Assembly: GCF_002080435.1 (NCBI RefSeq)
Contig: NZ_CP020538.1
Coordinates: 930,001 to 994,000, forward strand
From: Sphingobium herbicidovorans
GTDB lineage: Bacteria > Pseudomonadota > Alphaproteobacteria > Sphingomonadales > Sphingomonadaceae
Direction of reading: 5' to 3'
Length of the DNA: 64,000 bases
The notes beneath the pieces are model-generated. The model worked only from the letters and a program-made list of their open reading frames with translations. It was not told the origin of the DNA and searched no databases. The position numbers and the translations under genes are program-made. Shown in pieces: positions 1-36,849 of the stretch. Positions within the stretch are counted from its first letter, which is position 1; each line of letters starts with the position of its first letter.

Positions 1-89
1 GCTGCCGGGCCGCTGACGACCAATAGCGGTCGCTGAGTGTGGCAAAGGTCGCCCCGTTGCGGTATTACTCAGATCAGTGCCACATCGCA

Positions 90-560: not shown

Positions 561-695
561 GATATCCCCAATTTTTCAGTCATTTGGCCGTCTCGATTGG
601 CCAACCCCTATCGTCAAATATCATCGGTAATTCTGGATTGCGACCCTTATCCAGTGACCCTAAGCGAACGGTCCGCTCTCCACCCAAAACAGCCC

Positions 696-1760
696 CTACC
701 GCCCACCACCTTCTCGCTCCAGCAACGTCTTCTTCCGCTCAATCCCATAGGCATAGCCGCCCAACCCGCCGTCGCTCCGCAGCGCCCGGTGGCAGGGGAT
801 CAGCACAGCCAGCCCATTGTCGCCACAAGCCGTCCCAGCCGCCCGCACCGCCCTCGGCCGCCCAATCGACGTCGCGATCTCGGCATAGCTACGCGTCTCG
901 CCCGGCGGGATCGCGCGCAGGGCGGCCCACACCGCCTGCTGGAAAGCCGTCCCGCAAATATCGACCGGCAGGTCGAGCGGCCGCGTCGGCTCCTCGATCA
1001 ACCGCACCACCTGCGCCGCCAGCGCCTCCAACGCCGCGTCACCCGGCAATATCTCCGCCTTGGGAAAGCGCCGCCGCAACTCCGCCTCGCCCTCATCAAA
1101 GCTGATCCGGCACAACCCCTTCGCCGTGGCCGCGACCAGCACGGGACCGAGGCTCGACACCACCACCACATGGCGGATCGTGACGCCCCGCCCGCCATCT
1201 TTCCACGCGCTCGGCGTCATGCCCAAATGCCGCTTCGCATCCGCATAGGCGCGGCTCGGCGCATTATAACCCGCCTCATAGATCGCATCGGTGACGCTCT
1301 CGCCCTCCGCCAACGCCGCCTTCAGCCGCTCGGCGCGCAACGACCGCGCATAGGCGGCGGGGGTCAGCCCCGTCTCGCGCTTGAACAGGCGGTGGAAATG
1401 ATGCGGCGCATAGCCCGCATGGGCGGCGATCTCCTCCAGCGAAGGGAGCGTTTCAGCCGCGCCGATAAAGGCTTGCGCCGCCTCCACCGCCACGCGATCG
1501 CGCCCCACCTCGTCGGGCCGGCAGCGCAGGCAGGCGCGAAACCCCGCTGCCCGAGCCGCCGCCGGATCGGGCAGGAAGATCATATTTTCCCGCCGTGGAT
1601 GCCGCGCCGCGCAGCTTGGCTTGCAATAGATGCCGGTGGTCAGCACAGCGCCGACAAACCGCCCGTCCAGGCTGCGATCGCGGCGCATAAAGGCGTCCCA
1701 GCAAGCCTGGGCGTCCAAAGGTTGCTGCATCGAGGGGGCAATATCGCTCATCTGGTTCAT
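696..1760 (-). CDS. ada: Ada: bifunctional transcriptional activator / O6-methylguanine-DNA methyltransferase
   Basis: Ada repairs O6-alkylguanine and methylphosphotriesters by transferring the alkyl group to its own cysteines, then activates the adaptive response. From the ATG at 1760 the protein is 354 residues, the length of E. coli Ada. Visible in order: a metal-binding AdaA domain with Cys46, Cys50, Cys77 and Cys80 (CKPSC, CLRC); an AraC-type helix-turn-helix at about 100-185; and a C-terminal methyltransferase domain with the active-site motif IPCHR (Cys323). An in-frame start at 1826 would add 22 unconserved residues; the ATG at 1751 is also possible. It is divergent from the protease gene, with about 90 bp between them. 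Confidence 0.95.
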   Translation of the reverse strand: MNQMSDIAPSMQQPLDAQACWDAFMRRDRSLDGRFVGAVLTTGIYCKPSCAARHPRRENMIFLPDPAAARAAGFRACLRCRPDEVGRDRVAVEAAQAFIGAAETLPSLEEIAAHAGYAPHHFHRLFKRETGLTPAAYARSLRAERLKAALAEGESVTDAIYEAGYNAPSRAYADAKRHLGMTPSAWKDGGRGVTIRHVVVVSSLGPVLVAATAKGLCRISFDEGEAELRRRFPKAEILPGDAALEALAAQVVRLIEEPTRPLDLPVDICGTAFQQAVWAALRAIPPGETRSYAEIATSIGRPRAVRAAGTACGDNGLAVLIPCHRALRSDGGLGGYAYGIERKKTLLEREGGGR

Positions 1761-1852
1761 GCTTATGGAATAGCAGGGCTGCGGTGGCCAGCCTTCCCGC
1801 CACTTGCGCTCAAAGCAATTCCCCATTGCCTAAGTCCGGGCTTCGCATATGA

Positions 1853-3412
1853 ATGCGCCGGATCATGGTCGCCACGCTCCGCCGCCTCTGCCTTCTGCTT
1901 GCGCTCGCGCTGCCAACTGCGGCTTCTGCGGAACAGCAGGATATCGCCGCCGCCGCCCGTGGCGTGGTGCGCATCGCCATCGTCGCCACCGATGGCGCGG
2001 AGGCCTATTTTGTCGGCCACGGCAGCGGCTTTGCCGTCGCACCTGACAAGGTCATCACCAACGCCCATGTCGTCGAATTGACGCGCGAGGAAAAGAATCT
2101 GGTCATCGGCGTCATCCCGTCCGAAGGCCGCAAAAGCTATGGCGGCAGGGTGATCGCCTATTCGCCGGGCAACGATCTGGCGCTGATTCAACTGGAGGAA
2201 GGCAGCCTCCCCGTCAGCACATTCTATGCCGGGGCGCTCAGCGATGGGCAGCATGTAACGGCCATCGGCTATCCCGGCTCGGTAGATCGGGCGCAGGGCC
2301 TTGGCCTCAAGCAGATGGTCGAACCGCTCAGCACCGTGAAGACGAGCGGCAACATCTCGTCGGGACGCTCCAGCCAGAGCTTCGACACGATTCTCCATAC
2401 CGCGCCGCTTGCCGCCGGGAACAGCGGCGGTCCCCTGGTCGATGACTGTGGCCGGGTGCTGGGCGTCAACAGTTTCGGTTCGGTGTCGGACGGCAATGAC
2501 GCAGAGTTCGGATTCGCGGTGTCCTGGCGGGAAGTGGCCTCATTTCTCCGCCAGGCGGGCGTTTCCACCCTCCGCACGGTCGTTCCGTGCCGATCCATGG
2601 CCGACGCGATCGCCGCAGAAGCCGCGCTGACCCAGCGAGAGACGCAGCAGATCGAGCAGTCGGAACGCGCCCGGACCGACGCACGCGAAGCGGCGCTTCA
2701 AAAAGCCCGTGACAGCGCGGAGCAGGATGTCATCTCCAGCCGCGAAAATGCGATGGCGGGTGCGGCTGTCCTGCTTGCAATCGCGGTTCTGGGCCTGGGC
2801 GCTGGCGGGCTTTCCTACAGCCAGGGCCGGGAACGCCGCGCGACATGGCTGCTGGCGGGCGGCGGCGTTCTGCTGCTTGGCGCTTTCGCGCTGTTCTTCC
2901 TCAAGCCCAGCTTTTCCAGCATTGATGAACGCGTAAAACTGCCAGAGGACAACCGGGTCGCGGGCAACAGCGCCTATGCGTGGGAAGGCGACAATGTCTG
3001 CACCGTCGATCTCAACCGCAGCCGCCTGACAATTTCGGAAGCGAACGACATTCCCTTTAACTGGACCGCCACGGGATGCGTCAATGGCAACCGCCAATAT
3101 GTCAGTTCAGGCAATGACTGGGAACGCGCCACGGTCCCCGAATCCGGCAATTTCATCACGGTAAGCCGCTTCGATCCCGCAAGAGGCATGCTCCGCGTAG
3201 AACGCTGGCTCCCCGATAGCGACACGATGGATAAAGCGCGCGCCCTGCTCAACGACGGTCCGACCAAGGCATGCGGAACCGATTCCGACCTTTTGGCCCA
3301 GATCGCCGCGCTGCGCTCCAATCTCGCCGCCCTGCTGCCCGCGCAGCCCAATGAGCGATTGGTCTATCGCTGTCGCAAGGGCCGCCTTGCTCCGCCCGAT
3401 CCGTCCAACTGA
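1853..3412 (+). CDS. Secreted, membrane-anchored trypsin-like serine protease
   Basis: A 519-residue protein with a signal peptide (hydrophobic 11-24, ASA cleavage site). A chymotrypsin/HtrA-fold protease domain covers roughly 30-240, with His72 in TNAHVV, Asp108 in GNDLAL and Ser191 in GNSGGPL. No PDZ domain follows, unlike DegP/DegS. Instead there is a Glu/Arg/Gln-rich, probably coiled-coil stretch (about 255-300), two hydrophobic segments (about 302-322 and 331-350) and a 165-residue C-terminal domain that I do not recognise. The protease domain is predicted to be periplasmic; the location of the tail depends on how the two hydrophobic segments insert. ATG 1865 is an alternative start. The substrate is unknown. 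Confidence 0.85.
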   Translation: MRRIMVATLRRLCLLLALALPTAASAEQQDIAAAARGVVRIAIVATDGAEAYFVGHGSGFAVAPDKVITNAHVVELTREEKNLVIGVIPSEGRKSYGGRVIAYSPGNDLALIQLEEGSLPVSTFYAGALSDGQHVTAIGYPGSVDRAQGLGLKQMVEPLSTVKTSGNISSGRSSQSFDTILHTAPLAAGNSGGPLVDDCGRVLGVNSFGSVSDGNDAEFGFAVSWREVASFLRQAGVSTLRTVVPCRSMADAIAAEAALTQRETQQIEQSERARTDAREAALQKARDSAEQDVISSRENAMAGAAVLLAIAVLGLGAGGLSYSQGRERRATWLLAGGGVLLLGAFALFFLKPSFSSIDERVKLPEDNRVAGNSAYAWEGDNVCTVDLNRSRLTISEANDIPFNWTATGCVNGNRQYVSSGNDWERATVPESGNFITVSRFDPARGMLRVERWLPDSDTMDKARALLNDGPTKACGTDSDLLAQIAALRSNLAALLPAQPNERLVYRCRKGRLAPPDPSN

Positions 3413-3611
3413 CCGGATTCTCGCGGCGAAATGATCCGGCGAACGGCCTTGATTCCATCCTTGTGACGGAATCGTGTTCCATGGCTTGCATAGTCATAAT
3501 CCCGCTGCTAACCGGCCCGGCAACAGGGGAACGGGACGGATAAGACCGCGCCCCTCTTTTGCATGACCGGCAAATCAAGTGCCAGTGAACTCAATGGAGG
3601 ACGGTAAACGC
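3413..3611 (+). promoter_or_regulatory. Upstream region of the atp operon
   Basis: About 200 bp between the protease gene and atpH. It holds an inverted repeat GATTCC/GGAATC (3451-3456 and 3468-3473), which could be the end of the protease transcript or a regulator site. A GGAGG Shine-Dalgarno at 3596-3600 precedes the atpH GTG at 3612. The atp promoter should lie here, but I cannot assign -35/-10 boxes with confidence. Confidence 0.4.
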
Positions 3612-5698
<2,087 letters not shown>

Positions 5699-5703
5699 TA
5701 TGA

Positions 5704-5791
5704 AAGCCGTCACCCCAGCGTAAAGCTGGGGTCTCAGGCCGGATAGGTCCGACCTGACGGCTTGAGATGCCAGCCTTTGCTGGCATGACGG
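5704..5791. repeat. REP-like composite palindrome between atpA and atpG
   Basis: Two short hairpins lie in the 116-bp gap: ACCCCAGC/GCTGGGGT (5712-5719 and 5725-5732) and ATGCCAGC/GCTGGCAT (5767-5774 and 5779-5786). Around the first are outer inverted arms AGCCGTCA/TGACGGCT. The arrangement matches the dispersed extragenic palindromes common in sphingomonads and other Proteobacteria. In the mRNA it could stabilise or attenuate between cistrons. Confidence 0.75.
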
Positions 5792-5814
5792 AACAGGATT
5801 GAACGAGACGTCAG

Positions 5815-8170
<2,356 letters not shown>

Positions 8171-8178
8171 GCTACCTT

Positions 8179-8252
8179 GTTCTCCCCCCGCGCATGCGGG
8201 AGGGGAGAACAGAGGCACGTGACTGCGATCAACCCTCCCTTGAAAGGGAGGG
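8179..8252. repeat. Two intercistronic hairpins between atpD and atpC
   Basis: Hairpin one has arms GTTCTCCCC (8179-8187) and GGGGAGAAC (8202-8210), with further CCGC/GCGG pairing inside. Hairpin two has arms CCCTCCCTT (8233-8241) and AAGGGAGGG (8244-8252) with a 2-base loop. Together they fill most of the 97-bp gap. They resemble G/C-rich dispersed palindromes rather than terminators, since no T-run follows. Confidence 0.7.
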
Positions 8253-8267
8253 GCTAAGGAACCGAAG

Positions 8268-8522
8268 ATGGCACTGCATTTCGAACTCGTGACCCCCGAA
8301 AAGCTCGTCCGCTCGGAAGAGGTCTATCAGGTCGTCGTTCCCGGCGCCGATGGCGACTTCGGCGTGCTGGAAGGCCACGCCCCCTTCATGTCGACCGCCC
8401 GCGACGGCGCGATCCAGATTTTCGCCAGCGCCGGTTCGGCGCCCGAAGTCATCCCGGTCCAGGGCGGCTTTGCGGAGGTGAACGAAAAGGGCCTGACCGT
8501 CCTTGCGGAGCATGCGGGCTAA
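8268..8522 (+). CDS. atpC: F1F0 ATP synthase subunit epsilon, short form
   Basis: An 84-residue protein covering only the N-terminal beta-sandwich ([20 protein letters not shown], then [14 protein letters not shown]). The C-terminal two-helix domain of about 50 residues, which inhibits ATP hydrolysis in enterobacteria, is absent, and the frame ends cleanly in TAA. Short epsilon subunits are known in alphaproteobacteria, so this is probably native. It is the last gene of the operon. Confidence 0.95.
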
Positions 8523-8551
8523 GCCAACCCACTTCTCCTGATCCGTTCGCC

Positions 8552-8587
8552 AAGAAGGCCGCTTCCGCCAGGGAACGCGGCCTTCTT
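8552..8587 (+). terminator. Terminator-like hairpin after atpC
   Basis: AAGAAGGCCGC (8552-8562) pairs with GCGGCCTTCTT (8577-8587), an 11-bp perfect stem with a 14-base loop, 30 bp after the atpC stop. There is no long T-run downstream. Confidence 0.75.
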
Positions 8588-8723
8588 GCATTGCAACTAT
8601 CGGCGCGACCGCCCCCGCCATTAGCCATTTGTCAAAGTTTCCGCCCTATTCACCATTTCCAGCCATATTTGATCGGTCTCTTTGTGATTGGCTGGACCGA
8701 TTGGACCATAGCGGCGGAGAATT

Positions 8724-10250
8724 ATGAGCGCGTTTGGACGGAAAAATGGACCTGCCGGTATCAAGCCGGGATTCGGCGTGGCCAGGCCGATGCAGGGCGG
8801 AGCGCCTCGCGAGGAAGTCCGGGGTGGGGAACAGTTTCCTCCGCTCGACATGGCGCCCCTGCCCGCGGAAGCGCCGATCGATCCGCTTTCCGCTCCCACC
8901 AGCCAGATGCAGCGCAACGCCGACGCATTGCAGCGCCTGTCCGACCGCGCCAACGCCGAACATGTGCCCGACGCGGGGCCCCAAGGCTTTGAAGCGTCGG
9001 TCCACAAGATCAAGGAACAGGTTCTCCCCCGGCTCCTGGAACGCGTCGATCCGGAAGCTGCCGCGACGCTCAGCAAGGATGAGCTGGCCGAGGAATTCCG
9101 CCCGATCATCATGGAGGTGCTGGCGGAGCTCAAGCTTACCCTGAACCGGCGTGAACAGTTCGCGCTGGAAAAGGTGCTGGTCGATGAACTGCTCGGCCTC
9201 GGTCCGCTCGAGGAATTGCTGGCCGATCCGGACGTCAGCGACATCATGGTCAACGGGCCGGAGCAGACCTATATCGAAAAGAAGGGCAAGCTCCAGATCG
9301 CGCCCATCAAGTTCCGCGACGAAGAGCATCTGTTCCAGATCGCGCAGCGCATCGTGAACAAGGTCGGCCGCCGCGTCGATCAGACCACGCCGCTGGCCGA
9401 CGCCCGCCTGCCCGACGGCAGCCGCGTCAACGTGATCGTGCCGCCGCTGTCGTTGCGCGGCACCGCCATCTCGATCCGTAAATTCTCCGCCAAGCCGATC
9501 ACGCTGGACATGCTCGCCCAATGGGGTGCGATGAGTCCAAAGATGTGCACCGCGCTGAAGATCGCGGGCGCCTGCCGGATGAACATCGTCATTTCGGGCG
9601 GCACCGGCTCGGGCAAGACGACCATGCTCAACGCCCTGTCGAAAATGATTGATCCGGGCGAGCGCGTGCTGACCATCGAGGACGCGGCCGAACTGCGCCT
9701 GCAACAACCGCACTGGCTGCCGCTCGAAACGCGTCCCCCGAACCTGGAGGGCCAAGGCGCGATCACCATCGGCGATCTCGTCAAGAACGCCCTGCGTATG
9801 CGCCCCGACCGCATCATCCTGGGCGAAATTCGCGGCGCGGAGTGTTTCGACCTGCTCGCCGCGATGAACACAGGCCATGACGGCTCAATGTGCACGCTCC
9901 ACAGCAATAGCCCGCGCGAATGCCTTGGCCGTATGGAAAACATGATCCTGATGGGCGACATCAAGATCCCGAAGGAAGCCATCTCCAAGCAGATCGCCGA
10001 CTCGGTGGACCTCATCGTCCAGGTAAAGCGTCTGCGCGACGGTTCCCGCCGCGTCACCAACGTCACCGAGGTAATCGGGATGGAGGGCGATGTCATCGTC
10101 ACGCAGGAACTGTTCAAGTTCGAATATCATGACGAGGACGACAGCGGGAAGATTGTCGGCGAATATCGCTCCATGGGCCTGCGTCCCTATACGCTGGACA
10201 AGGCGCGGCAGTTCGGTTTCGACCAGCCGTTCCTGGAGGCTTGCCTTTGA
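8724..10250 (+). CDS. cpaF: CpaF-family secretion ATPase (Flp/Tad type)
   Basis: A 508-residue hexameric ATPase of the type that powers Flp pilus assembly. After a Pro-rich N-terminal 60 residues come the CpaF all-alpha region, the N-terminal domain (LADPDVSDIMVNGPEQTYIE), Walker A GGTGSGKTTM, Walker B region RPDRIILGEIRG and a His box (GHDGSMCTLHSNSP). The Shine-Dalgarno CGGAG lies a few bases before the ATG. No tadB, tadC or other cpa gene is adjacent: the neighbours are the atp operon and a permease, so the gene is separated from a Tad cluster or serves one elsewhere. Confidence 0.93.
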   Translation: MSAFGRKNGPAGIKPGFGVARPMQGGAPREEVRGGEQFPPLDMAPLPAEAPIDPLSAPTSQMQRNADALQRLSDRANAEHVPDAGPQGFEASVHKIKEQVLPRLLERVDPEAAATLSKDELAEEFRPIIMEVLAELKLTLNRREQFALEKVLVDELLGLGPLEELLADPDVSDIMVNGPEQTYIEKKGKLQIAPIKFRDEEHLFQIAQRIVNKVGRRVDQTTPLADARLPDGSRVNVIVPPLSLRGTAISIRKFSAKPITLDMLAQWGAMSPKMCTALKIAGACRMNIVISGGTGSGKTTMLNALSKMIDPGERVLTIEDAAELRLQQPHWLPLETRPPNLEGQGAITIGDLVKNALRMRPDRIILGEIRGAECFDLLAAMNTGHDGSMCTLHSNSPRECLGRMENMILMGDIKIPKEAISKQIADSVDLIVQVKRLRDGSRRVTNVTEVIGMEGDVIVTQELFKFEYHDEDDSGKIVGEYRSMGLRPYTLDKARQFGFDQPFLEACL

Positions 10251-10358
10251 CGTGACCGGCCTGGCTGCGGGGTGATCGCCCCGTTCCGCCAGCCCGGGAA
10301 ATCCCTCTTTCTACGCTAAGCGGTTGCGCCATCTTTTCAGCCAACTAAAGCGAACGCC

Positions 10359-11297
10359 GTGCAACCGCCCGCCCCTGCAAGCCCCCCGGAGGAAATGCCG
10401 CCTCCGCCGCTGACGCGTGACGAACGCCCGCTGTCGGGGATTGGCCTGCGCGTTGTGGCGATGATCTTCCTGGCGGCGATGTTCGCATTGGGCAAAGTGA
10501 TCAGTGCGCGCGGAGTCGCCCTGGGCGAACTGCTCTTCTACCGTCAGGCACTTGCGCTACCGCTGATACTTGCCTGGGTCGCGATGACCGACGGCTTGGC
10601 CTCCGTGCGCACCAACAGGCTGGGTGCGCATGTCAGCCGGACCGCGCTGGGCCTCACCGGCATGGCCCTCAATTTCGGCTCCTACCTGCTTTTGCCGCTG
10701 ACGGAAGCCACTGCGATCGGCTTCACCATGCCGATCTTCGCCACGCTGCTGTCGGTGCTCATCCTGCGGGAAAGCACAGGCCCCCACCGCTGGGCCGCCA
10801 TTCTGCTGGGCTTTGCCGGCATCATCGTCATGATCCGCCCCGACAGCGCACATTTCCCGCCACTCGGGCTTGCCGTCGCCATCACCGCGGCGGTCCTGAC
10901 CGCGTGCATCAGCCTGGTCCTGCGTGACCTTGGCCGGACCGAAAAGCCCGGCGTCATCGTCTTCTGGTTCACCATCCTTTCACTGCCGCCGCTCGGCCTG
11001 GTGATGCTGTTCGTCGGCACGGCGCATGATCCGCTCACCTGGGCGCTGCTCGCCGCGCTCGGGCTGACGGGCGGGATCGGCCAGCTTTGCATGACCGGCG
11101 CGTTGACCCGCGCGCCGGTATCGGTGGTGCTGCCCATGGACTACAGCATGATCATCTGGTCCACCCTGCTCGGCGTGCTGATCTGGGGCGAATGGCCGAT
11201 GCCGACGACCTGGATCGGCGCCATGCTCATCATCTTGAGCGGCCTCTACATCGCTTGGCGGGAGCATGTCCGCACCCGCCGCGCCGCATTGGCCTGA
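10359..11297 (+). CDS. EamA-family (DMT superfamily) membrane permease
   Basis: About 312 residues with roughly ten hydrophobic segments arranged as two EamA repeats (about 30-155 and 165-300). The substrate is not predictable; relatives export amino acids, nucleotides or other metabolites. The start is uncertain. GTG 10359 gives the full frame; ATG 10395 has GGAGG only 2 bases upstream, which is too close. It lies 108 bp after cpaF and ends 5 bp before the convergent osmC-like gene. Confidence 0.88.
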   Translation: MQPPAPASPPEEMPPPPLTRDERPLSGIGLRVVAMIFLAAMFALGKVISARGVALGELLFYRQALALPLILAWVAMTDGLASVRTNRLGAHVSRTALGLTGMALNFGSYLLLPLTEATAIGFTMPIFATLLSVLILRESTGPHRWAAILLGFAGIIVMIRPDSAHFPPLGLAVAITAAVLTACISLVLRDLGRTEKPGVIVFWFTILSLPPLGLVMLFVGTAHDPLTWALLAALGLTGGIGQLCMTGALTRAPVSVVLPMDYSMIIWSTLLGVLIWGEWPMPTTWIGAMLIILSGLYIAWREHVRTRRAALA

Positions 11298-11302
11298 TCC
11301 GC

Positions 11303-11734
11303 TCAGCCCAGCAGTTCGGCATCCAGACTGATCTGGGCGTTCAGCAGCTTCGACACGGGGCAGTTCGCCTTGGCCTTTTCCGCCAATTCCTGAAACTGCG
11401 CGTCGTCGGCGCCGGGGATACGAGCCTTCAGAGTCAATTTGCTTGCCGTGATGACAAAACCGCCCTCCTGCTGTTCCAGCGTGACGACGGCGTTGGTCTC
11501 CATCTTTTCGGCGGTCAGCCCGGCTTCGCCCAATATCAGGGAAAGCGCCATGGTGAAGCAGGATGCGTGGGCCGCCGCGATCAATTCTTCAGGGTTAGTC
11601 CCCGGTACGCCCTCAAACCGCATGGCAAAGCCATAGGGATGCGCGTCCAGCGCCCCGCTCTGCGTGGAAATCGCGCCCTTCCCATCCTTCAGGCCGCCGC
11701 TCCACACCGCTGATCCGCTACGATTGATCTTCAT
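11303..11734 (-). CDS. OsmC/Ohr-family peroxiredoxin
   Basis: A 143-residue thiol-dependent hydroperoxide reductase. The start at 11734 has a strong AGGAGG Shine-Dalgarno 6 bases upstream; longer in-frame starts lack this. The two redox cysteines are visible in AAHASCFTMALS and ANCPVSKLL. It is closer to OsmC (osmotically inducible; N-terminus INRSGSAVWSG) than to Ohr. It is divergent from the PRC-barrel gene, with an 85-bp shared promoter region. Confidence 0.92.
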   Translation of the reverse strand: MKINRSGSAVWSGGLKDGKGAISTQSGALDAHPYGFAMRFEGVPGTNPEELIAAAHASCFTMALSLILGEAGLTAEKMETNAVVTLEQQEGGFVITASKLTLKARIPGADDAQFQELAEKAKANCPVSKLLNAQISLDAELLG

Positions 11735-11819
11735 GCTGATCCTCCTGCCAAATAGGGTGGAACCCCGCCGATCCTGCCCGGTTTCATTCTTATATCCGAT
11801 TCCCTGCAGGAGCGTGACC

Positions 11820-12185
11820 ATGACCAACCCGGCTACAGAACAACCCAGCGATCTCATCGCTTCGGACAAGGTCGAAGGCACGGTCGTCTATAACCGCGCC
11901 GGCGACAGGCTCGGCCACATTTCCAACCTCATGGTGGACAAGCGCAGCGGTCAGGTGCGCTATGCCGTCCTGTCCTTCGGCGGCTTCCTGGGCCTGGGCA
12001 ACGATCATTATCCGCTGCCATGGTCGATGCTGGAATATGACACGGGAAAAGGGGGATATCTCGTCGATCTCAGCAAGGATCAGCTCAACGACGCCCCGCG
12101 GCATATGCCCGGCATGCAGCCCGACTATGACGAAACCTATGGCCGCACCGTATTTTCATATTACGGGCTGATCTATCCTTGGTAA
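11820..12185 (+). CDS. PRC-barrel domain protein
   Basis: A 121-residue soluble protein with one PRC-barrel fold at about 10-90 (GTVVYNRAGDRLGHISNLMV, then VRYAVLSFGGFLGLG). This domain is known from photosynthetic reaction-centre H subunits, RimM and stress-related proteins. The start is fixed by AGGAG 7 bases before the ATG. Frequent partners of such proteins in sphingomonads are stress genes, which fits the divergent osmC neighbour. The exact role is unknown. Confidence 0.88.
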   Translation: MTNPATEQPSDLIASDKVEGTVVYNRAGDRLGHISNLMVDKRSGQVRYAVLSFGGFLGLGNDHYPLPWSMLEYDTGKGGYLVDLSKDQLNDAPRHMPGMQPDYDETYGRTVFSYYGLIYPW

Positions 12186-12335
12186 GCCGTCGGTAACACC
12201 ATCGATAGAGCTGAATGAAAAGCTGAACCGCCGATGAATCCGGCTGCCTAAATCCGGACACAATTGATCGCTTCGATATTGTCTACTTAAAGAATAGAAT
12301 TATCGTCTCTTCAGGCAACTGGAGAGGATCACGCC

Positions 12336-13004
12336 ATGGAGCGATTCGGACATCTGGGTGACGCACGCAACCCGGTCGTGCTGACCATACCGGGCCTCAA
12401 CAATAGCGGGCCGGACCATTGGCAGAGCCTTTGGGAAAGCAGACGCGGCGATTGCCAGCGGGTCGATCTGGGCAGTTGGGCCAGCCCTGGCCGTAACGCC
12501 TGGGTCACGCGGCTTGACGCCGCAATTCGGGAAGCGGACGGGCCGATCATCCTGGCGGCACACAGCCTCGGCTGCCTCGCCGTGGCCTGGTGGGGCGCGT
12601 TGCAAAGTCAGGCTTATGGCTGGCCGGTGACCGGGGCCTTGCTGGTCGCTCCGCCCGATTGCGACAGGATGGAAACGCCTGAAACGATCGGCGGGTTCGG
12701 CCCCACGCCGCGTGCGCAACTACCCTTCCCATCCTTTGTCGTGGCCAGCCGCAACGACCCCTATATCTTCTTCGAACGCGCACACAGTATCGCGAAAAAT
12801 TGGGGCAGCACCTTCGTCGATGCGGGTCATTGCGGCCATATCAACGCCGATTCCGGTCTTGGACAGTGGGACTTCGGTCAAATGCTGCTCGACCGGCTGG
12901 TAGACGATGCGCATGAACAGGCCGCTGTGATACGGCAAATGCGGCCAGCCACAACCCTTCCCCATCATGAAAGACGAATGAGCGCGTTGCGGATGATCAA
13001 CTGA
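12336..13004 (+). CDS. RBBP9/YdeN-like alpha/beta hydrolase
   Basis: A 222-residue serine hydrolase. It has the N-terminal strand and oxyanion region (VVLTIPGLNNSGPDHWQS), the nucleophile elbow AHSLGC, the acid in SRNDPY and the catalytic His in GHCGHINADSG, all in RBBP9-family order. No signal peptide. The preceding 150 bp is AT-rich in its last 60 bases and probably holds the promoter. It ends 94 bp before the YezD-like gene, on the same strand. The substrate is unknown. Confidence 0.9.
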   Translation: MERFGHLGDARNPVVLTIPGLNNSGPDHWQSLWESRRGDCQRVDLGSWASPGRNAWVTRLDAAIREADGPIILAAHSLGCLAVAWWGALQSQAYGWPVTGALLVAPPDCDRMETPETIGGFGPTPRAQLPFPSFVVASRNDPYIFFERAHSIAKNWGSTFVDAGHCGHINADSGLGQWDFGQMLLDRLVDDAHEQAAVIRQMRPATTLPHHERRMSALRMIN

Positions 13005-13098
13005 CATGACGGGCGCCACAAGGCTGGCTTGGGTGTCCGATATATTTGCTTTTTTGTCTATTAAATCAGTTGAGATAAAGGTCGGGTCAGAGGTGCTT

Positions 13099-13290
13099 GT
13101 GAGTGACAATCCGACAATCCCATTCGCCAGCAACGGCGGCGTGCAAGGCCAGCGGCACGACATCGCCGTCAGCGTGGAAAAGGTTCGTGGCGTGCTTGAA
13201 GCACTGCGTTTCGGGTCGATCACCTTGACCGTGCACGACGCGCGCGTCGTCCAGATCGACGTGACGGAAAAGACTCGGCTCACCGCCTGA
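13099..13290 (+). CDS. YezD-like small protein (DUF2292)
   Basis: A 63-residue protein whose core, from VEKVRGVLEALRFGSITL through VVQIDVTEKTRL, matches the YezD/DUF2292 pattern (short helix, FGSI-x-[IL]TVHD, VVQI-x3-EK-x-RL). I prefer the GTG at 13099, preceded by AGAGG. The upstream in-frame ATG at 13006 would translate a markedly AT-rich stretch (13040-13080) that looks like promoter DNA. YezD-type proteins are often encoded near sulfur-acquisition genes, suggesting a sulfur-limitation context with the receptor downstream. The function is unproven. Confidence 0.72.
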   Translation: MSDNPTIPFASNGGVQGQRHDIAVSVEKVRGVLEALRFGSITLTVHDARVVQIDVTEKTRLTA

Positions 13291-13421
13291 CACCAGGCCA
13301 GCCTTCAGTAACCGGCGGCCGGAATGGGCCGCTGACTATCCATATCCATCCAAGACATCGGTTTTGACCGGACCACCGGAAATGCCGCGATCAACATTCA
13401 CCGAAATAAGGGGAATTTTTC

Positions 13422-15886
13422 ATGATTGCGCGTTCCTTGCTGCTCGCCACCACGGCGAGCGCATCCTTCATTGCGTCCGGCGTCCATGCGGCGGACAGCG
13501 TTCCAGCCGCCGCCGCTGCTGACGCCGCCGCAGAGCAAAGCAGCCCGCGTGGCGAGGTAATCATCGTCACCGCCCGCCGCCGCGCGGAAACCGCGCAGCA
13601 AGTGCCGCTGGCCATCTCGGTGATCCGTGGCGACAGCATCGAAGCGACCGGCAACTTCAACGTGGTGAAGCTCCAGCAGCTTGCGCCGACGCTTCAGGTC
13701 TATACCACCAATCCGCGCAACACCTCGGTCAACATCCGTGGGCTGGGCGTGCCGTTCGGCCTTACCAGCGACGGATTTGAACAGGGCGTCGGCATCTATG
13801 TCGATGACGTCTATAATTCGCGCGTCGCCGCCGCGACCTTCGACTTCCTTGACGTCAACCAGGTTGAGGTGCTGCGCGGCCCGCAAGGCTCGCTCTACGG
13901 CAAGAACACAACGGCGGGCGCGATCAATATCACGACCAACCAGCCGACCTTCGATTTCGAAGGCCGCGCCGAACTGTCCATCGGGAACCTCAACTACCGG
14001 CAAGCAAAGGCTGCTATATCCGGCCCCTTGTCTGAAACGGTCGCTGCCCGCCTCGCCGTCGCCGCGACCAGCCGCCGGGGACCATCTACAACGTCACGTC
14101 GCAACGCTGGATCAACGAACAGGACAATCTGGGCATTCGTGGCCAGCTGCTGTTCCGGCCCAATGACGATCTCAGCGTCACGCTGTCGGGCGACTATAGC
14201 AGGCAGGATCCCGAATGCTGTGGCACCACCTTCGTCCGCGTCGGCCGCACGCAGCGCCCGCTCAACCGCCAATATGACGCGCTTGCCGCGGCGCAGGGCT
14301 ATGTCGCGCCCAGCCGCAATCCTTATGATCGCTTGACCGATCTCGACAGCAATCTGAACGCGGGCAACAAGATCGGCGGCGTGTCGGCGCGCATCAAGTG
14401 GGACATCGGCCCCGGCACGCTCACCTCCGTCACTGCCTGGCGCTTCTGGGACTGGAAGCCGGAAAATGACCGCGATTTCACCGGCCTGTCGATCGTCTCC
14501 CGCTCGCAAAACCCTTCGCAACAGGACCAGTATAGCCAGGAATTTCGCTATAATTACGAAAGCCAGAAGATCGACTTCGTGGTCGGCCTATTCGGCTTCA
14601 AGCAGCGGATCGACACGCAGGGCACCGAACAGCAGGGCGTCAACGCTGCCCAGTGGAGCCTTGCGCCCTCGTCCGATCCGTTGAACCCGGCCAACAATCC
14701 TGCGACGCTCGCGGGCCTGACCGCCAGCAATACGCAGTATCTGAAGGCGGACAGCGCCGCCCTGTTCGGTCAGCTCAGCTGGAAAGTCACCGACGCACTG
14801 ACGCTTCAGCCCGGCCTTCGCCTCAACTACGACAAGAAGTCCGGCTTCTATCAGCGTGTCGTCACAAACGCGCAGGGCCAGGCCATCAGCTGCACGCCCA
14901 CGCCAGCGCCGGGCACCATCGCGGGCACGTCGCAGCAGTGCGGCGTCTACCAGCCGCAGGTCAGCGCCCCGTCCGACAGCGCGTGGAACTTCACCTATGA
15001 CTTCAACGTCAACTACAAGGTCGCCCGCGACGTTCTGGCCTATGCGACCTACGCCAAGAGCTTCAAGACGCTCGGCATCAACCAGAACGGCTTGCCGCTC
15101 AACATCGACAATACAGTCAACTACGACGCCGCGACGGTGAAGCCGGAATCGGTGCAACATTTCGAAGTGGGCCTCAAGACCCAGCTGTGGGATCGCCGCG
15201 CGACCTTCAACGTCTCCGCCTTCCGCACCACGATCAAGGACTTCCAGGCGACGGTGAATGGCGGCCAGTTCGGCACCGTGCGCGGCTACCTCGCCAACGC
15301 GGAAAAGGTCCGGTCGCAGGGCATTGAAGCGGACTTCAAGGTGGTCGCAAGCGACCGCTTCACCGCTTACGCGAACGCGGCTTACACCGACGCGAAATAC
15401 AAGAAGTCCACCAACGCGCCTTGCCCGCCCGAACTGTCGGGCGGACCGTCGCAGCCCGCTGGCGTCCCGGCCGACTATTCCCAGCCAGGCGTACCGGGGG
15501 CACCCAGCCCTCGCCAGTGCGACATTTCCGGTCAGGACCTGCCCGGCGTGTCCAAATGGGCTTTCTCCTACGGCGCGGAATATAACATCCCGGTGACGCT
15601 GCTGGCGAAGGAAGGCCAGGTCTATCTGGGCATCGACGGCAACTACCGCTCACGCTGGAACTCCAACGCCTCGCCCTCGCGCTACACCGAAGTAAAGGGC
15701 TATGCCCTGACCAACTTCCGCGCCGGTTTCCGTGGCGAAGGCTTCGATGTGTTCGGCTGGGTCCGCAACGCCTTCTACGTCAACTATATCGAAAATCTCC
15801 AGGTTGCGCCGGGCAACACCGGCCTGATCGCCGGCCAGCCCGGCGACCTGCGGACATGGGGCGGAACGCTCAAATTCTCGTTCTGA
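13422..15886 (+). pseudogene. TonB-dependent outer-membrane receptor, frameshifted
   Basis: A signal peptide (residues 1-24), TonB-box/plug region (QVPLAISVIRGDSIEATGNF, VNIRGLGVPFG, VEVLRGPQGSLYGKNTTAGA) and C-terminal beta-barrel ending in the aromatic signature TLKFSF are all present, but in two frames. Reading frame is lost after ARLAVAATSRRG at about 14077-14080. Adding one G to the GGGG run restores TIYNVTSQRW and the whole barrel, giving about 821 residues. Both halves are otherwise intact, so this is either a sequencing error or a very recent mutation. An AAGGGG Shine-Dalgarno precedes the ATG. The neighbouring YezD-like gene suggests an organosulfur ligand, but this is inference. Confidence 0.88.
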
Positions 15887-32399: not shown

Positions 32400-32473
32400 G
32401 GCCCGATGGCGGAGTGGTTACGCAGAGGACTGCAAATCCTTGCACGCCGGTTCGATTCCGGCTCGGGCCTCCA
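32400..32473 (+). tRNA. tRNA-Cys (anticodon GCA)
   Basis: Folds as a 74-nt cloverleaf. The acceptor stem GGCCCGA pairs with TCGGGCC (32463-32469), the anticodon loop CTGCAAA holds GCA, and the T-arm GCCGGTTCGATTCCGGC is standard. The discriminator base is U, as required by cysteinyl-tRNA synthetase, and CCA is encoded at 32471-32473. Confidence 0.97.
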
Positions 32474-32651: not shown

Positions 32652-34109
32652 TCACTCCGATTCCGCAACTTGGGTCAGGCCAAGCGCATCCTCATCGGCT
32701 GTCGCAGCGGCTAATTCAGCTTTCGCTGCGGCGATACGGGCCTGCGCTTCTATCAGCTTTACCTCGGCATTGGTCGCGCTTTCCTCGCGCTGGTTGACCA
32801 GGAAGAAGTCGCTTGATCCAAGTTCGAAACGACGCCGTTCGGCTACGGCCAGACGCTGCGCCAGCACACGTTCCCTTTCTGTCGTTGCGACCAGCTGGCC
32901 CGCGGTTTCGACCTCCAGGCCGATCGCAGCGACTTCGGCCCGGATCTTTTCGGCCAGAAACTGCTGCTTTACCGTCAGTTCGTCGATCTTCGCCTGCGTT
33001 TCGGCCAGCTTGCCTTTGGCTTTGCGGTTCTGGAGCGGGATCTTGAAGGTGACGCCGACGATCATCTCGAGAGGCGTCCGGCTTCGCCCACCGATACCCG
33101 TCGGCCCGATGTCCTTGGCTACCTCTCCTCCGAAGTCGATTCGGGGCAACAGGTCGTTGCGGGCAAGGGCCAGCTTGACAGTCGCCTTGTCGATTTCCTC
33201 AAGCATGATCGCGAAATCGGGGCGGCCTTCCAGATTGAAAGCAGGGTCCGTCCTGATCCCGTCCAGTGCCGTAGCATCGGTGGGCAGTCGCGCTTCGTCG
33301 ACGATGATTGGCGTGCCATCGGCACCGCGATAATAAAGGGACAGCTTGACGGCTGCGGCCCGAAAATCCTGCCGCGCCTCTACGACGAACGCCTGCCGCC
33401 TTACGAGGTTCGCTTCGTTCTCGGTCAGGAGGATATCGGGTTTGGCGCCAAGCTGCACCTGACGCTCGATGCCGTTGGTACGCCCCCTGGCCAGCCCCAG
33501 CAGCGCCTCATACGCCTTGAGTTTCAGTCCGGCAGCGACCCATTTCTGATACGCATCCACCGCGCGCGCCTGAACCCCTATGCTCGTGGCTTTGGTTTCG
33601 AACCGGGCGATGTCGATGTCGTTGGCGGCCAGCCGGAACTCCGAACGCCGCGCATCGATCAACCGGTCGCGCATCAGCGAATAGAGCGCGCCGACCTTCA
33701 ACTCACCCAGGCGGTTCGTATAGGACTTGTCCTCATAGACCGGGAAATCGCCGCGCGATGCCCGGTATTGCCCATAAAGATAGCCGCCATTGCCGCTGAG
33801 CGGCTGCTCGGCCTTGCCCGCGATTTCCGAGCCGTCGTAATAGCCCAGCACGCGGCTGCGGCCCTCTACGGCAAACACGGTGTCGAACGCACCCTGCGCC
33901 GTCAGCGCGCGCGCCTCGGCCTGCCGGTTGCGCGCCAGCGCCGCGATGATGTCAGGCGCGGACCGGGCCGACGATTGCAGCACCTCCTGCAGCGTCAGCG
34001 GAGCGGCGCTCGCGTTCGCCGATGGTGCGCGCATATCCTGCGCCTGTGCCGCCGGGAACAGGTCAGCAGCCAGCAGCCAGGTCAGGCCGATCACGATCCG
34101 CATCTTCAC
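32652..34109 (-). CDS. TolC-family outer-membrane protein of an ABC/HlyD export module
   Basis: A 485-residue protein with a signal peptide (AQAQD) and TolC-like alpha-helical hairpin regions (LTLQEVLQSSARSAPDIIAA; RLAVAERRRFELGSSDFFLV). It is the third gene of a coupled set: the GTG start at 34109 overlaps the HlyD stop by 4 bases (GTGA). It differs from the other TolC gene in having a long insert before the first barrel strand. Likely forms the outer-membrane exit duct for this module. Confidence 0.87.
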   Translation of the reverse strand: MKMRIVIGLTWLLAADLFPAAQAQDMRAPSANASAAPLTLQEVLQSSARSAPDIIAALARNRQAEARALTAQGAFDTVFAVEGRSRVLGYYDGSEIAGKAEQPLSGNGGYLYGQYRASRGDFPVYEDKSYTNRLGELKVGALYSLMRDRLIDARRSEFRLAANDIDIARFETKATSIGVQARAVDAYQKWVAAGLKLKAYEALLGLARGRTNGIERQVQLGAKPDILLTENEANLVRRQAFVVEARQDFRAAAVKLSLYYRGADGTPIIVDEARLPTDATALDGIRTDPAFNLEGRPDFAIMLEEIDKATVKLALARNDLLPRIDFGGEVAKDIGPTGIGGRSRTPLEMIVGVTFKIPLQNRKAKGKLAETQAKIDELTVKQQFLAEKIRAEVAAIGLEVETAGQLVATTERERVLAQRLAVAERRRFELGSSDFFLVNQREESATNAEVKLIEAQARIAAAKAELAAATADEDALGLTQVAESE

Positions 34110-35170
34110 TTTTTCTTCTTTTCGATCGAGCTTTTGTCGGCTTTGTCCTCCGTTTTCTGCGCGACCTGATCCTGCCCGAAGTTCAATGGGAAATCATTGA
34201 GTTGCCGCCACAGTTCGTAGCCGACCGTGACGTTGTCGCCCTGGATCCAACCCAGCGCCTTGCCGCCCTGACGCACGAAGCGGCGCTCGGGCCAGGCCGG
34301 CTTTCCGGGCATTGGCTCCACCAGTACGCGGAACAGTCCGTCGGCGCGCGGCGTCGGATCGACAGAGCGAACCTGGCCGTCGTAAATACCGACAGCAAAG
34401 GCGGGCCATCCACTGAACTGAAACGCGGGGAAGCCCTCGAACTCCAAGCGCACCGGGCGTCCCCGGTCGACAAGCGGAATGTCACGTCCGTCAACGAACA
34501 ATTCCACCGCGCGTTCGATCTGTTCGGGCGCGATGGTCGCAAGCATCGTGCCTGCGGAAATCAGGGCGCCACCAGCCGCTGCGTTGAGGTTCTGTATACG
34601 CCCGTCACGCGGCGCGGTGACGACCTGCGCCGATTGCCGCTTCTGTCGCACCTCGATCTGCTGGAGCTTGGCCCGCGCTTCGGCGAGCTTGGCGTTGGCG
34701 TCGGCGACCTTGATCTGAGTCTGCTCGTAATCGCGCCGAGCGGCCAGGCCCTCGGCGAAAAGCTGGGAGGTGCGCCCGACATCGATTGACGCGACTGCGC
34801 GGGCTTGCTCGATTGCGGCGATCTGCGCTTGCACTTCTGCCTTTTCGGCAGCGAGCCGCTCAAGAAAGTTGGGGTCCACATCGACCACTTTCACGATCGG
34901 ATCGCCCGCTTTCACTAGTTGGCCGTCCTGAACGAAGAATCGCTCCACCCGACCGTCCACGAATGACGACACCTGCTGCGGCCGGTCGTCTGGATCGAGA
35001 GAAATCACTTGGCCGCCACCCTGCGCGGTCTGCCGCCAGGGTACGAAGAGGATCGCGACGGCAAGACACAGCCCCACCACGATCAGCCAAGCCACCACTA
35101 TAACGACGCGTGGCGGGTTGAGCCCGGTAAGGGAACGGAAATGCGCCAGTTGGGTCGCGTTGATCGTCAC
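34106..35170 (-). CDS. HlyD-family periplasmic adaptor
   Basis: A 354-residue membrane-fusion protein. One transmembrane helix at about 21-44 (VVIVVAWLIVVGLCLAVAIL), a lipoyl/biotinyl half-motif (VDGRVERFFVQDGQLVKAGDPI), an alpha-helical hairpin (85-185, EAEVQAQ/Ala-Lys-rich), the second lipoyl half (QVVTAPRDGRIQNLNAAAG) and a beta-barrel follow. The start is GTG and overlaps the ABC gene's stop by 4 bases. It bridges the inner-membrane ABC protein and the TolC-type duct. Confidence 0.9.
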   Translation of the reverse strand: MTINATQLAHFRSLTGLNPPRVVIVVAWLIVVGLCLAVAILFVPWRQTAQGGGQVISLDPDDRPQQVSSFVDGRVERFFVQDGQLVKAGDPIVKVVDVDPNFLERLAAEKAEVQAQIAAIEQARAVASIDVGRTSQLFAEGLAARRDYEQTQIKVADANAKLAEARAKLQQIEVRQKRQSAQVVTAPRDGRIQNLNAAAGGALISAGTMLATIAPEQIERAVELFVDGRDIPLVDRGRPVRLEFEGFPAFQFSGWPAFAVGIYDGQVRSVDPTPRADGLFRVLVEPMPGKPAWPERRFVRQGGKALGWIQGDNVTVGYELWRQLNDFPLNFGQDQVAQKTEDKADKSSIEKKKK

Positions 35171-36849
35171 GACTGAGCCTCCCTCGCAGCAAGGACCTGC
35201 GACAGCGCCGCTTCATCCGCAAAGCGATGCTGTTCCCGCGCGCCAAGCCAAAAACAGCAGTCCAGATTCAGCGCTTCGGGCCGTGCGGTGAACAGCAGAA
35301 CGGTCGTGCCCTGTTCACGAAGCATATTGAGCGTCGCTTGGAGAGGCGCGGCGGGCATCATGTCGTAGAGCTGGGACAGGAACAGCACCTTTGGGCGGCC
35401 TATCAGCGCGGATGCGACTTTGAGCTGCATGACCTCGACAATGGAAAGCGGCGATCCCGAACTTGCAAGCTGCGTATCAAGGCCTTTCGGCAGGCTCGCA
35501 ATGCGCGTCGCAAGGCCGACAATGTCCAGCACCTTCATGGTGATGGCGCTGTCCGCATTACCTCCAGCCGCCATGTTCAGATATTCGCGGATGGTGACGT
35601 CAACAATGGTGGGCCGGTTGAGCACAACCACTGCGGATCGCAGCAGGTACATGTCGAAGCTGCCAAGGTCGCTGCCGCCGATCGTCAGCAGCCCTCTATC
35701 GGGATTTACGTGGCGCTTGAGCAGCAGCGCGATCTGGTTCTCGACGCCTGGTCCGGCCAAAATAACGGCTTGCTCTCCGCTGTCGATCGCGAAGTCGAAG
35801 CGCGAGCCGGCGAGTTCCACGTTGCGGAATCGGACCGAGCCGTCAGGGGGCGCCTGACCGTTCAGATCCACCGGCTCCTGCGGGATCGCGAAAACCTGCG
35901 ACAGCTCTTCTGAACTGGCGACGAGATCATAGAATGTGTCGAGATACCAGCCCAGCTGGGCAATGCCGTAGAACACGCCCGACAATATGAGTTCGGCGGC
36001 GACGAGTTGCCCGATCGACAGCTCTCCTGCCAGAATGAGGTGCCCGCCAAGCGCCAGCAAGGCCGCTGCGGCGAACGCATAGACCAGGAAATAGGCAAGC
36101 GCCTGTGCGAAACTGTATCGAAAATAGCGACGGTGCGCCCGGATGTAGTTCGCCGTCACTTCCTCCGAGCGGTCCATGGCGAAGTTCAAATGACGTGCCG
36201 ATTTGTAGAAACCGTTGGAAGCGCCGACGCTCTCCAGCCAATGCGCGGCCTCATGCTTGGCATGTGATACGCCGACCGCACCGGTGATCGCGCCATGACG
36301 CCACAGCATCCAGATCAGAAGGCATGTGACCACGAGAACGATGTTGAACGCGAGAAAGAAGGGGTGGTAAAAACTTGTGACCACCAATCCCACCGCGGCC
36401 TGAAGAATGATGGTGAATGCGCCGATGACCAGGCTAGGCACTGATTTCTGGACGACGACCATGTCGAAATAGCGGTTGAACAGACTGCCCCGGCTCTCAT
36501 CCGCGAAAAACGGGTTCTGCGCGTGAACTGCCCTTACCGTGACTTCGGCCACCACCCGCGCGAACAGACGACGCTCGAACATGGTCATCAGGTAGAGGCG
36601 CAAAGCGCTCAGGCACGCTACGAGAAGCAGCAGCACCAGCAACACGCCCGACAATATCCAAAGCGGGGCGACAAGTGCCGTCCGAGCTACCGAATTAATG
36701 AGCAGCTGGACGGAGATCGGCGTCGCCAGCGAAAGGAGCGTAATGGCCAGCGTGTACACGATGCCGACATGGACGTAGCCCTTGTCAGGGCCAACTATCT
36801 CGCCGACCCAGGCGGCAGCATGCCGCAGACCGAACTGCTCTTCAGCCAA
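35167..36849 (-). CDS. ABC exporter-like membrane protein with degenerate ATPase domain
   Basis: 560 residues: an ABC type-1 transmembrane domain (about 25-310, six helices) fused to a C-terminal region in the position of the nucleotide-binding domain. That region keeps the domain's general pattern (RGLLTIGGSDLGSFDMYLLR, IASLPKGLDTQL) but has lost the motifs. Walker A reads GPGVENQI (365-373), the signature is PLSIVEV (468-474) instead of LSGGQ, Walker B is VLFLSQ (488-493) without Asp/Glu, and the H-loop His is Ala (TARPE, 521-525). The TTG start has GAGG 7 bases upstream; no ATG or GTG is available before the in-frame stop. Probably not an ATPase; it may scaffold or use a partner's ATPase. 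Confidence 0.85.
   Translation of the reverse strand: MAEEQFGLRHAAAWVGEIVGPDKGYVHVGIVYTLAITLLSLATPISVQLLINSVARTALVAPLWILSGVLLVLLLLVACLSALRLYLMTMFERRLFARVVAEVTVRAVHAQNPFFADESRGSLFNRYFDMVVVQKSVPSLVIGAFTIILQAAVGLVVTSFYHPFFLAFNIVLVVTCLLIWMLWRHGAITGAVGVSHAKHEAAHWLESVGASNGFYKSARHLNFAMDRSEEVTANYIRAHRRYFRYSFAQALAYFLVYAFAAAALLALGGHLILAGELSIGQLVAAELILSGVFYGIAQLGWYLDTFYDLVASSEELSQVFAIPQEPVDLNGQAPPDGSVRFRNVELAGSRFDFAIDSGEQAVILAGPGVENQIALLLKRHVNPDRGLLTIGGSDLGSFDMYLLRSAVVVLNRPTIVDVTIREYLNMAAGGNADSAITMKVLDIVGLATRIASLPKGLDTQLASSGSPLSIVEVMQLKVASALIGRPKVLFLSQLYDMMPAAPLQATLNMLREQGTTVLLFTARPEALNLDCCFWLGAREQHRFADEAALSQVLAAREAQS

Follow-up and report, generated by a model that had tools for sequence, protein, structure and literature searches.

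An accessory ABC/HlyD/TolC-type exporter of sphingomonads and their relatives whose ABC subunit lacks the ATPase motifs

Results

The ABC subunit of a three-gene exporter has no ATPase motif

Three minus-strand genes in a 64,000-nucleotide stretch of the Sphingobium herbicidovorans genome (contig NZ_CP020538.1, positions 930,001 to 994,000; hereafter the window) encode a tripartite exporter whose inner-membrane subunit has the fold of an ATP-binding cassette (ABC) exporter and none of the ATPase motifs. This pseudo-ABC subunit (35167..36849; 560 residues; TTG start) consists of a transmembrane domain (TMD, residues ~1–330) and a degenerate nucleotide-binding domain (NBD, residues ~331–560). 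The second gene encodes a periplasmic adaptor of the HlyD or resistance-nodulation-division (RND) membrane-fusion-protein type (34106..35170) and the third a TolC-type outer-membrane channel (PF02321; 32652..34109). The GTGA overlaps that a preliminary description of this DNA had reported are present at both junctions, ABC/HlyD and HlyD/TolC, and place the adaptor and channel genes in the same operon. The best reading of the trio and its relatives is that they form a distinct family of accessory, ATPase-dead tripartite exporters in which the NBD serves as a scaffold. Among the three explanations first offered for such an arrangement, an ATPase acting in trans, another energy source, and a gating role, another energy source fits best, and we tentatively propose that the TMD of an ATPase-dead accessory exporter, with its NBD as a scaffold, is driven by the proton-motive force, a reading to which we give a little less than an even chance.

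The NBD lacks, at the positions where alignment would place them, the Walker A motif, Q-loop glutamine, LSGGQ, Walker B aspartate, catalytic glutamate, and H-loop histidine, which bears out the earlier statement for every motif. The Walker A position (residues 363–377; 35719..35763) reads ILAGPGVENQIALLL, the Q-loop position (residues 407–420; 35590..35631) reads VVVLNRPTIVDVTI with Asn at the aligned site, and the signature position (residues 462–479; 35413..35466) reads ASSGSPLSIVEVMQLKVA, without LSGGQ. Further along the minus strand, which carries all five segments, the Walker B/D-loop position (residues 485–498; 35356..35397) is occupied by RPKVLFLSQLYDMM and the H-loop position (residues 515–525; 35275..35307) by TTVLLFTARPE, with Ala at the aligned site. 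A shared three-residue deletion in the D-loop, suggested by one alignment, was discarded after it disappeared upon realignment.

The ABC exporter fold itself is present in the protein, with a type IV TMD and a RecA-like NBD, and its best fold neighbors in the PDB are PCAT1 and HlyB. Pfam recognizes ABC_membrane in the ABC protein (33.2 bits), HlyD_3 in the adaptor (55.6 bits), and OEP in the channel (97 bits). ABC_tran matches none of the three proteins, and the trio's NBD is not among the 39 ABC_tran matches in the source genome. The best NCBIfam profiles of the ABC protein are HlyB (98.7 bits; cut-off 725.55) and LssB (96.1 bits; cut-off 693.1). As to a phage origin, the PHROGs matches are one general ABC family for the ABC protein and two unknown families for the HlyD protein. 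The identity of a defense system was dropped, as PADLOC, which covers such systems, gave no match for any of the three proteins.

Motif loss and gene order are shared by relatives

Among 84,980 species genomes scanned, 60 named loci have a relative (60–90% identity over the best segment), 59 of them labeled as sphingomonads or their kin and one (L025) as Xanthomonas. Within the order, 28 of 196 genomes, the source genome included, carry a relative scoring at least 247 bits, with the next best match at 86 bits; 26 of these carriers were read (all except G002 and G093), and some may share species with the named loci. In addition, a survey of the class (profile E ≤ 1e-60) found carriers in three of 385 genomes, all in the window's own family and counting the source genome, and a survey of the phylum (profile E ≤ 1e-50) found 11 in 398 genomes, revealing two further families coded f195 and f240. 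The f195 relatives occur in four of 197 genomes of their order, with a fully degenerate NBD. In f240, 36 of the family's 150 genomes have a relative, and 20 of these carriers were read for motifs.

A strict Walker A motif (GxxGxGK[ST]) was found in 0/60 named loci, 0/26 order genomes (the source genome included), and 0/4 f195 genomes, and LSGGQ in 0/110 sequences, comprising the 60 named loci, the 26 order genomes, f195, and f240. No aligned Asp-Glu pair is present at Walker B in the window or in the rows inspected; a regular-expression search for Asp-Glu matched only L059, where the pair falls near the beginning of the NBD and not in Walker B. Likewise, neither the Q-loop Gln nor the H-loop His appears at the aligned positions in the rows inspected; L081 and L082 have a His two residues past the H-loop position. 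The expectation that homologs lack GxGKS/T and Asp-Glu thus stands for the named, order, and f195 sequences and extends to f240 only in part: the strict Walker A motif is found there in 18 of 20 sequences, GK[S/T] in all 20, and the Walker B Asp is kept, but alignment shows no catalytic Glu, Q-loop, LSGGQ, or H-loop in its place. Judged from their sequences, f240 loci such as L116 might bind ATP without hydrolyzing it.

The gene order is equally shared. HlyD adjoins the pseudo-ABC gene in 60/60 named loci and TolC is present in 59/60, the exception (L031) being a 3.2-kb contig that ends inside the HlyD gene. The full trio is found in all 20 order genomes with long flanks and in all four f195 genomes. 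In f240, HlyD adjoins in 21/21 loci (one genome counted twice), and TolC is present in the one locus where its place was within reach. The proposed distinct family, defined by shared degenerate motifs together with HlyD and TolC, is therefore upheld by both the motif and the neighbor counts. The L025 contig, labeled Xanthomonas maliensis, has a sphingomonad-type copy that falls inside the Sphingomonas part of the tree; its flanks gave no blastn match to the other 59 loci, and it is either a mis-binned contig or a transfer.

Searching with an f240 query retrieved seven Bacteroidota records (Riemerella 4, Persicobacter 2, Aureibacter 1). In the two that were read, L156 and L157, HlyD and TolC neighbors were recognized by profile, the Walker A positions read GYSNSGKN and GDTASGKS, and the Walker B regions LLLNDN and LILLKEP, respectively. 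These NBDs are broken in yet other ways, so that the motif losses differ by lineage. The trio of L157 (positions 1–13518, a Riemerella plasmid record) lies among murB, rplU, rsmI, and fabG, and the record reads as more chromosomal than plasmid. Plasmid records also hold 15 Sphingomonadales copies, three of them on plasmids predicted to be conjugative, and three of the 15 were read; Novosphingobium aromaticivorans DSM 12444 has a copy (L160) on its plasmid pNL2. Five of the 15 are labeled "ABC transporter ATP-binding protein" and three "ABC transporter transmembrane domain-containing protein."

A broader profile, with the three best candidates per genome scored in the same 398 phylum genomes, found no intermediates between the family and canonical exporters: the 11 phylum members, some of which are rows of the profile, score at least 627 bits, the next best match scores 192.5 bits, and no intermediate was seen in the gap. 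A tree on TMD columns, built without the Bacteroidota rows, recovers the family as one clade (100/100) and f240 as one clade (97/99), with the sphingomonads and f195 grouped (86/81) beside f240. The canonical branches are long and long-branch joins are possible in this tree, and only the 100/100 and 97/99 clades are relied on. On the simplest view, loss of catalysis preceded the spread of the family, and the ATP-binding residues disappeared later, in the sphingomonad–f195 branch.

The dead NBD is under selection and the TMD is the most constrained part

To quantify selection, the ratio of nonsynonymous to synonymous substitution rates (dN/dS) was calculated over the 78 pairs formed by the window copy and 12 near relatives. 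The median is lowest in the TMD (0.041), followed by HlyD (0.066), TolC (0.118), and the NBD (0.130). Moreover, the identity of the TMD exceeds that of the NBD in 8/8 comparisons with the window (eight chosen of the 35 relatives in the alignment), whereas two canonical half-exporters, compared in the seven genomes that also served for the partner test below, have the more conserved NBD in 11/12 comparisons, the exception being a close pair (89% versus 84%). The order of TMD and NBD conservation is reversed relative to canonical exporters. Together, the low dN/dS of the NBD and the higher identity of the TMD imply that the dead NBD is constrained, but less so than the TMD. These values also bear on whether the gene is simply decaying in a lineage no longer in need of it, as might be supposed from the missing NBD motifs and from the accessory occurrence of the exporter in 28 of the 196 order genomes. 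Selection and phyletic spread contradict this: the frames are open, dN/dS is far below 1 in all parts, and the same trio is found in relatives at 35–90% identity. We regard decay as very improbable, in line with the earlier judgment that the gene is not a decayed one.

Three TMD residues, Glu286 (codon 35992..35994, minus strand) in transmembrane helix 6 (TM6), Lys198 (codon 36256..36258, minus strand), and Gln249, are present in 65/65 family rows and in 0/9 canonical exporters at these sites. The 65 rows represent 60 loci, as four f195 genomes and one f240 genome were entered twice. Among the plasmid copies, the same three residues occur in 5/5, including both from Bacteroidota, and Gln281 occurs in 4/5. 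Glu286 lies within the TM6 stretch LSIGQLVAAELILSGVFYG, and profile alignment to P-glycoprotein pairs it with the first of the two Phe residues in the TM6 segment VFFSV, which we take to be human F335, a residue lining the drug cavity.

The pseudo-ABC protein could be no transporter at all, serving instead as a sensor or an assembly factor for an adaptor–channel pair used by another inner-membrane pump. The conservation of HlyD and TolC alongside it would fit such a role, as would the NCBIfam scores of the adaptor, which is nearer to RND-type (86.1 bits) than to HlyD (79 bits) profiles, both below cut-off. It is the TMD, however, and not the NBD that is under the strongest constraint in the trio, and the invariant position aligns with the TM6 cavity of P-glycoprotein, so that we consider a nontransporting role improbable. 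The combination of a dead NBD and a charged TM6 residue across bacterial groups suggests a pump that may run on another energy source.

No dedicated competent partner was found

A competent ABC half adjacent to the trio had not been seen before, and none was found here; the annotated neighbor clusters are without an ABC ATPase. Other half-exporters were detected by an ABC_membrane scan in 26/26 genomes. The source genome has four: one of the MsbA_rel type, which scores just under the cut-off of that model, one without a family, one LssB-type, and one PrtD-like. In a partner test, five carriers (G000, the source genome, with G005, G155, G133, and G143) were compared with two non-carriers (G044 and G188). 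Only two half-exporters are common to all five carriers (59–67% identity in the other four), namely the MsbA_rel-type protein and a second one whose best NCBIfam profile is MsbA (392 bits; cut-off 602), and both are also found in 2/2 non-carriers (62–88%). No dedicated competent half was therefore found in the five carriers versus the two non-carriers, in a search that covered half-exporters and left free NBDs and stand-alone ATPases outside. Because the shared half-exporters also occur in non-carriers, a dedicated partner is unlikely. An obligate competent half encoded elsewhere would have gone against the earlier interpretation; no dedicated one was seen among the half-exporters compared, and pairing with a housekeeping half-exporter or a free NBD is possible.

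If the pseudo-ABC protein were to heterodimerize with a competent half-exporter or to recruit a free ATPase, one live NBD would power the pump. Heterodimers with one degenerate site are common according to the available text of PMC12038006, with TmrAB an example described in that of PMC8277102, candidate half-exporters are present in every genome scanned, and the f240 branch retains GK[S/T] and the Walker B Asp. Nevertheless, with all motifs gone from the sphingomonad NBD, no composite site would be completed, and neither the partner test, in which the only two recurring half-exporters are shared with non-carriers, nor the neighbor clusters point to an ATPase. We consider this arrangement unlikely.

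One half-exporter of the source genome deserves a separate remark. The PrtD-type ABC gene of a type 1 secretion system (T1SS) at G000:C2:253537-254963 (L092, 3456-5093) looks split, possibly through a frameshift or an assembly error: its NBD runs on into a second frame, ABC_tran matching in part a frame of 560 and in part one of 162 amino acids, and an HlyD-type gene lies beside them.

Neighboring genes point to a probable small-molecule substrate

Where at least 1 kb of upstream sequence was available, a divergent LysR gene was found upstream of the trio in 23/58 named loci and 6/26 order loci. In f195, three of four loci (L112, L113, and L115) have a divergent NhaR-like LysR gene scoring 176.5–197.3 bits (NhaR cut-off 219). 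NhaR responds to sodium, and the NhaR-like regulators would be of interest if the pump is ion-coupled. A profile of the sphingomonad LysR found no divergent LysR in the four f195 or 20 f240 loci; as it misses the NhaR-like genes of f195, its silence in f240 carries little weight.

With a divergent LysR gene in many of the loci, the pump may be inducible and act on small molecules. No protein substrate gene was recognized among the annotated neighbor clusters, although substrates may be encoded elsewhere, and besides HlyD, TolC, and LysR, no functional neighbor cluster recurs across lineages. Taken together, the divergent LysR in many loci and the lack of a protein-substrate or maturation gene recurring across lineages indicate that the substrate is probably a small molecule.

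Other neighbors are confined to few loci. A Met-zincin peptidase gene lies downstream of the trio in four loci of one genus (L085–L088), an amidase and an EamA transporter are neighbors in four loci of one genus, and a second outer-membrane efflux (OEP) gene (c14) lies upstream of the trio in L024, L034, L041, L042, and L057. A chemotaxis receptor, a GGDEF-EAL protein, a hybrid histidine kinase, an acyl-CoA dehydrogenase, an enoyl-CoA hydratase, an aminotransferase, and a glycosyltransferase are each found in few related loci. The neighbor clusters c3, c5, c6, and c7 were discounted as antisense frames by their position. In L159 (positions 1–5664; plasmid pHAL16 of Sphingobium sp. KCTC 72723), a DUF2309 gene, presumably DabA-like, ends 43 bases before the pseudo-ABC gene and is preceded by a long open frame entering from the start of the record. 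A search of 110 other loci, about 25 of which have only ~1.5 kb of flank, turned up no relative.

The trio is an accessory gene set beside a core tRNA

In the window, the trio adjoins the 3' end of a core tRNA-Cys(GCA) gene (32400..32473, plus strand). The block tolC-PIMT-tRNA-Cys is retained and the trio is absent in 3/3 non-carriers of the same genus, whose stretches were compared over 8.8, 8.6, and 3.8 kb past the tRNA gene. Similarity to these same-genus genomes stops at the 3' end of tRNA-Cys in two of three and 31 bases further in the third. A search of the window turned up no second copy of the 3' end of tRNA-Cys; a tRNA-linked integrative element was therefore rejected, and the claim is limited to an accessory gene set beside a core tRNA.

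Discussion

In the mechanism that we tentatively propose, the inner-membrane subunit, an ABC-exporter fold that is presumably a homodimer, would work with the HlyD-type adaptor and the TolC-type channel. The retained NBD would be a scaffold, structural or allosteric, for the TMD dimer and perhaps also for the adaptor. The TMDs would move the substrate by alternating access, drawing on the proton-motive force as Glu286 is protonated, and the substrate would then leave the cell through the adaptor and channel. On this view, the protein would be a secondary transporter that evolved from an ABC exporter and still carries its dead motor. Proton coupling via Glu286 is proposed by analogy with NBD-less LmrA, NBD-less MsbA, and SbmA. 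The available text of PMC2704374 and PMC6155054 describes proton-coupled transport by NBD-less LmrA, with Glu314 of TM6 required for the pH-driven part, and that of PMC4979069 describes substrate movement on a pH gradient by NBD-less MsbA. A bolder version holds that a natural, independent SbmA-like conversion has left graded stages, from f240 with GK[S/T] and Asp kept to the sphingomonads with all lost, and that it gave TolC pumps a third proton-driven engine beside RND and major facilitator superfamily (MFS) proteins. We see this version as possible, with greater reserve.

Several observations weigh against proton drive through Glu286. Instead of carrying protons, this residue may serve to bind a substrate that is cationic or may form a pair, with Lys198 or elsewhere in the protein, and it is likened to LmrA Glu314 as a TM6 glutamate. 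The AlphaFold confidence of the TMD is low (block means of 35–66), so that the helix geometry relies on sequence alignment. A divergent LysR, on which the picture of an inducible pump draws, is absent from the window and from most loci. Moreover, a purely proton-driven pump would have no need of an NBD, as SbmA, without an NBD and coupling helices, illustrates, and here the NBD is under selection. The GK[S/T] and Walker B Asp kept by f240 imply a role for ATP binding in that family at least, and the ion currents of full-length LmrA required ATP binding at the NBDs (available text of PMC6155054 and PMC2704374). The selected NBD, the remnant of an ATP site in f240, and the ATP requirement of LmrA would be in keeping with an NBD that acts allosterically or as a gate.

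Alternatively, the exporter could be a gated, unpowered conduit in which the dead ABC dimer, adaptor, and channel release a metabolite downhill with the NBD as the sensor or gate. An NBD fold kept under selection without catalytic residues fits a ligand-sensing scaffold, and the f240 remnant would fit a gate; passive release, on the other hand, has no need of an invariant TM6 carboxylate, Lys, and Gln. We know of no gated channel of the ABC-exporter fold other than CFTR, which still binds ATP, and this also counts against a conduit, which we hold to be rather unlikely.

ABC transporters are usually defined by their use of ATP. An exporter family maintained by selection without an ATPase motif is a natural test case for whether the proton-motive force can drive the TMD of an ABC exporter, which has so far been asked of truncated LmrA and MsbA and of SbmA. 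If the proton-driven reading is true, these proteins would be a new type of engine for TolC-linked pumps, and records labeled "ABC transporter ATP-binding protein," as five of the 15 plasmid copies are, would be mis-described. No description of an ATPase-dead exporter family was found in the open literature, a weak negative given that subscription journals and preprints were little covered. In its available text, a review of tripartite pumps (PMC8277102) speaks of degenerate NBDs in heterodimers such as TmrAB and nowhere else, and that of a second review (PMC10094684) does not mention them.

Comparison with known systems sets the family apart in different ways. Like the HlyB-HlyD-TolC and LssB-type exporters, the trio combines an ABC half-exporter with HlyD and TolC. 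However, in contrast to the T1SS proteins HlyB and LssB, its ABC protein scores far below the family cut-offs and lacks an ATPase motif; at 560 amino acids, it is also too short for an N-terminal C39-like domain, and no protein substrate gene was recognized nearby. The heterodimeric exporters TM287/288, TmrAB, BmrCD, and MsRv1273c/72c, which are among the fold matches of the ABC protein, have a degenerate NBD of normal fold as well. They have a competent partner, as the available text on TmrAB describes, whereas no dedicated one was found here.

The SLiPT proteins SbmA and BacA are closer in the proposed energetics. According to the available text of PMC13316013, SbmA is proton-driven, is thought to descend from an ABC exporter whose NBD was lost, and has conserved transmembrane glutamates, and the hallmarks of SLiPT are the absence of an NBD, a TM0 domain, and a glutamate ladder. 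The two would thus share an ABC-exporter TMD fold switched to proton drive, with conserved transmembrane glutamates. By the same source, SbmA is an importer without an NBD and coupling helices, whereas the pseudo-ABC protein keeps its NBD, which places it outside SLiPT, and belongs to an export trio. No SbmA/BacA model was matched in its Pfam and NCBIfam scans. The NBD-less LmrA-MD and MsbA-MD likewise have ABC-exporter TMDs acting as proton-coupled transporters, as measured for them and proposed by analogy here; they are laboratory truncations of live ATPases, whereas in this family the ATPase was disabled by nature. Finally, RND and MFS tripartite pumps such as EmrAB-TolC are alike in joining an adaptor and TolC to an inner-membrane pump, and would be alike in proton coupling if that proposal holds, but the inner-membrane subunit of the present trio has the fold of an ABC exporter.

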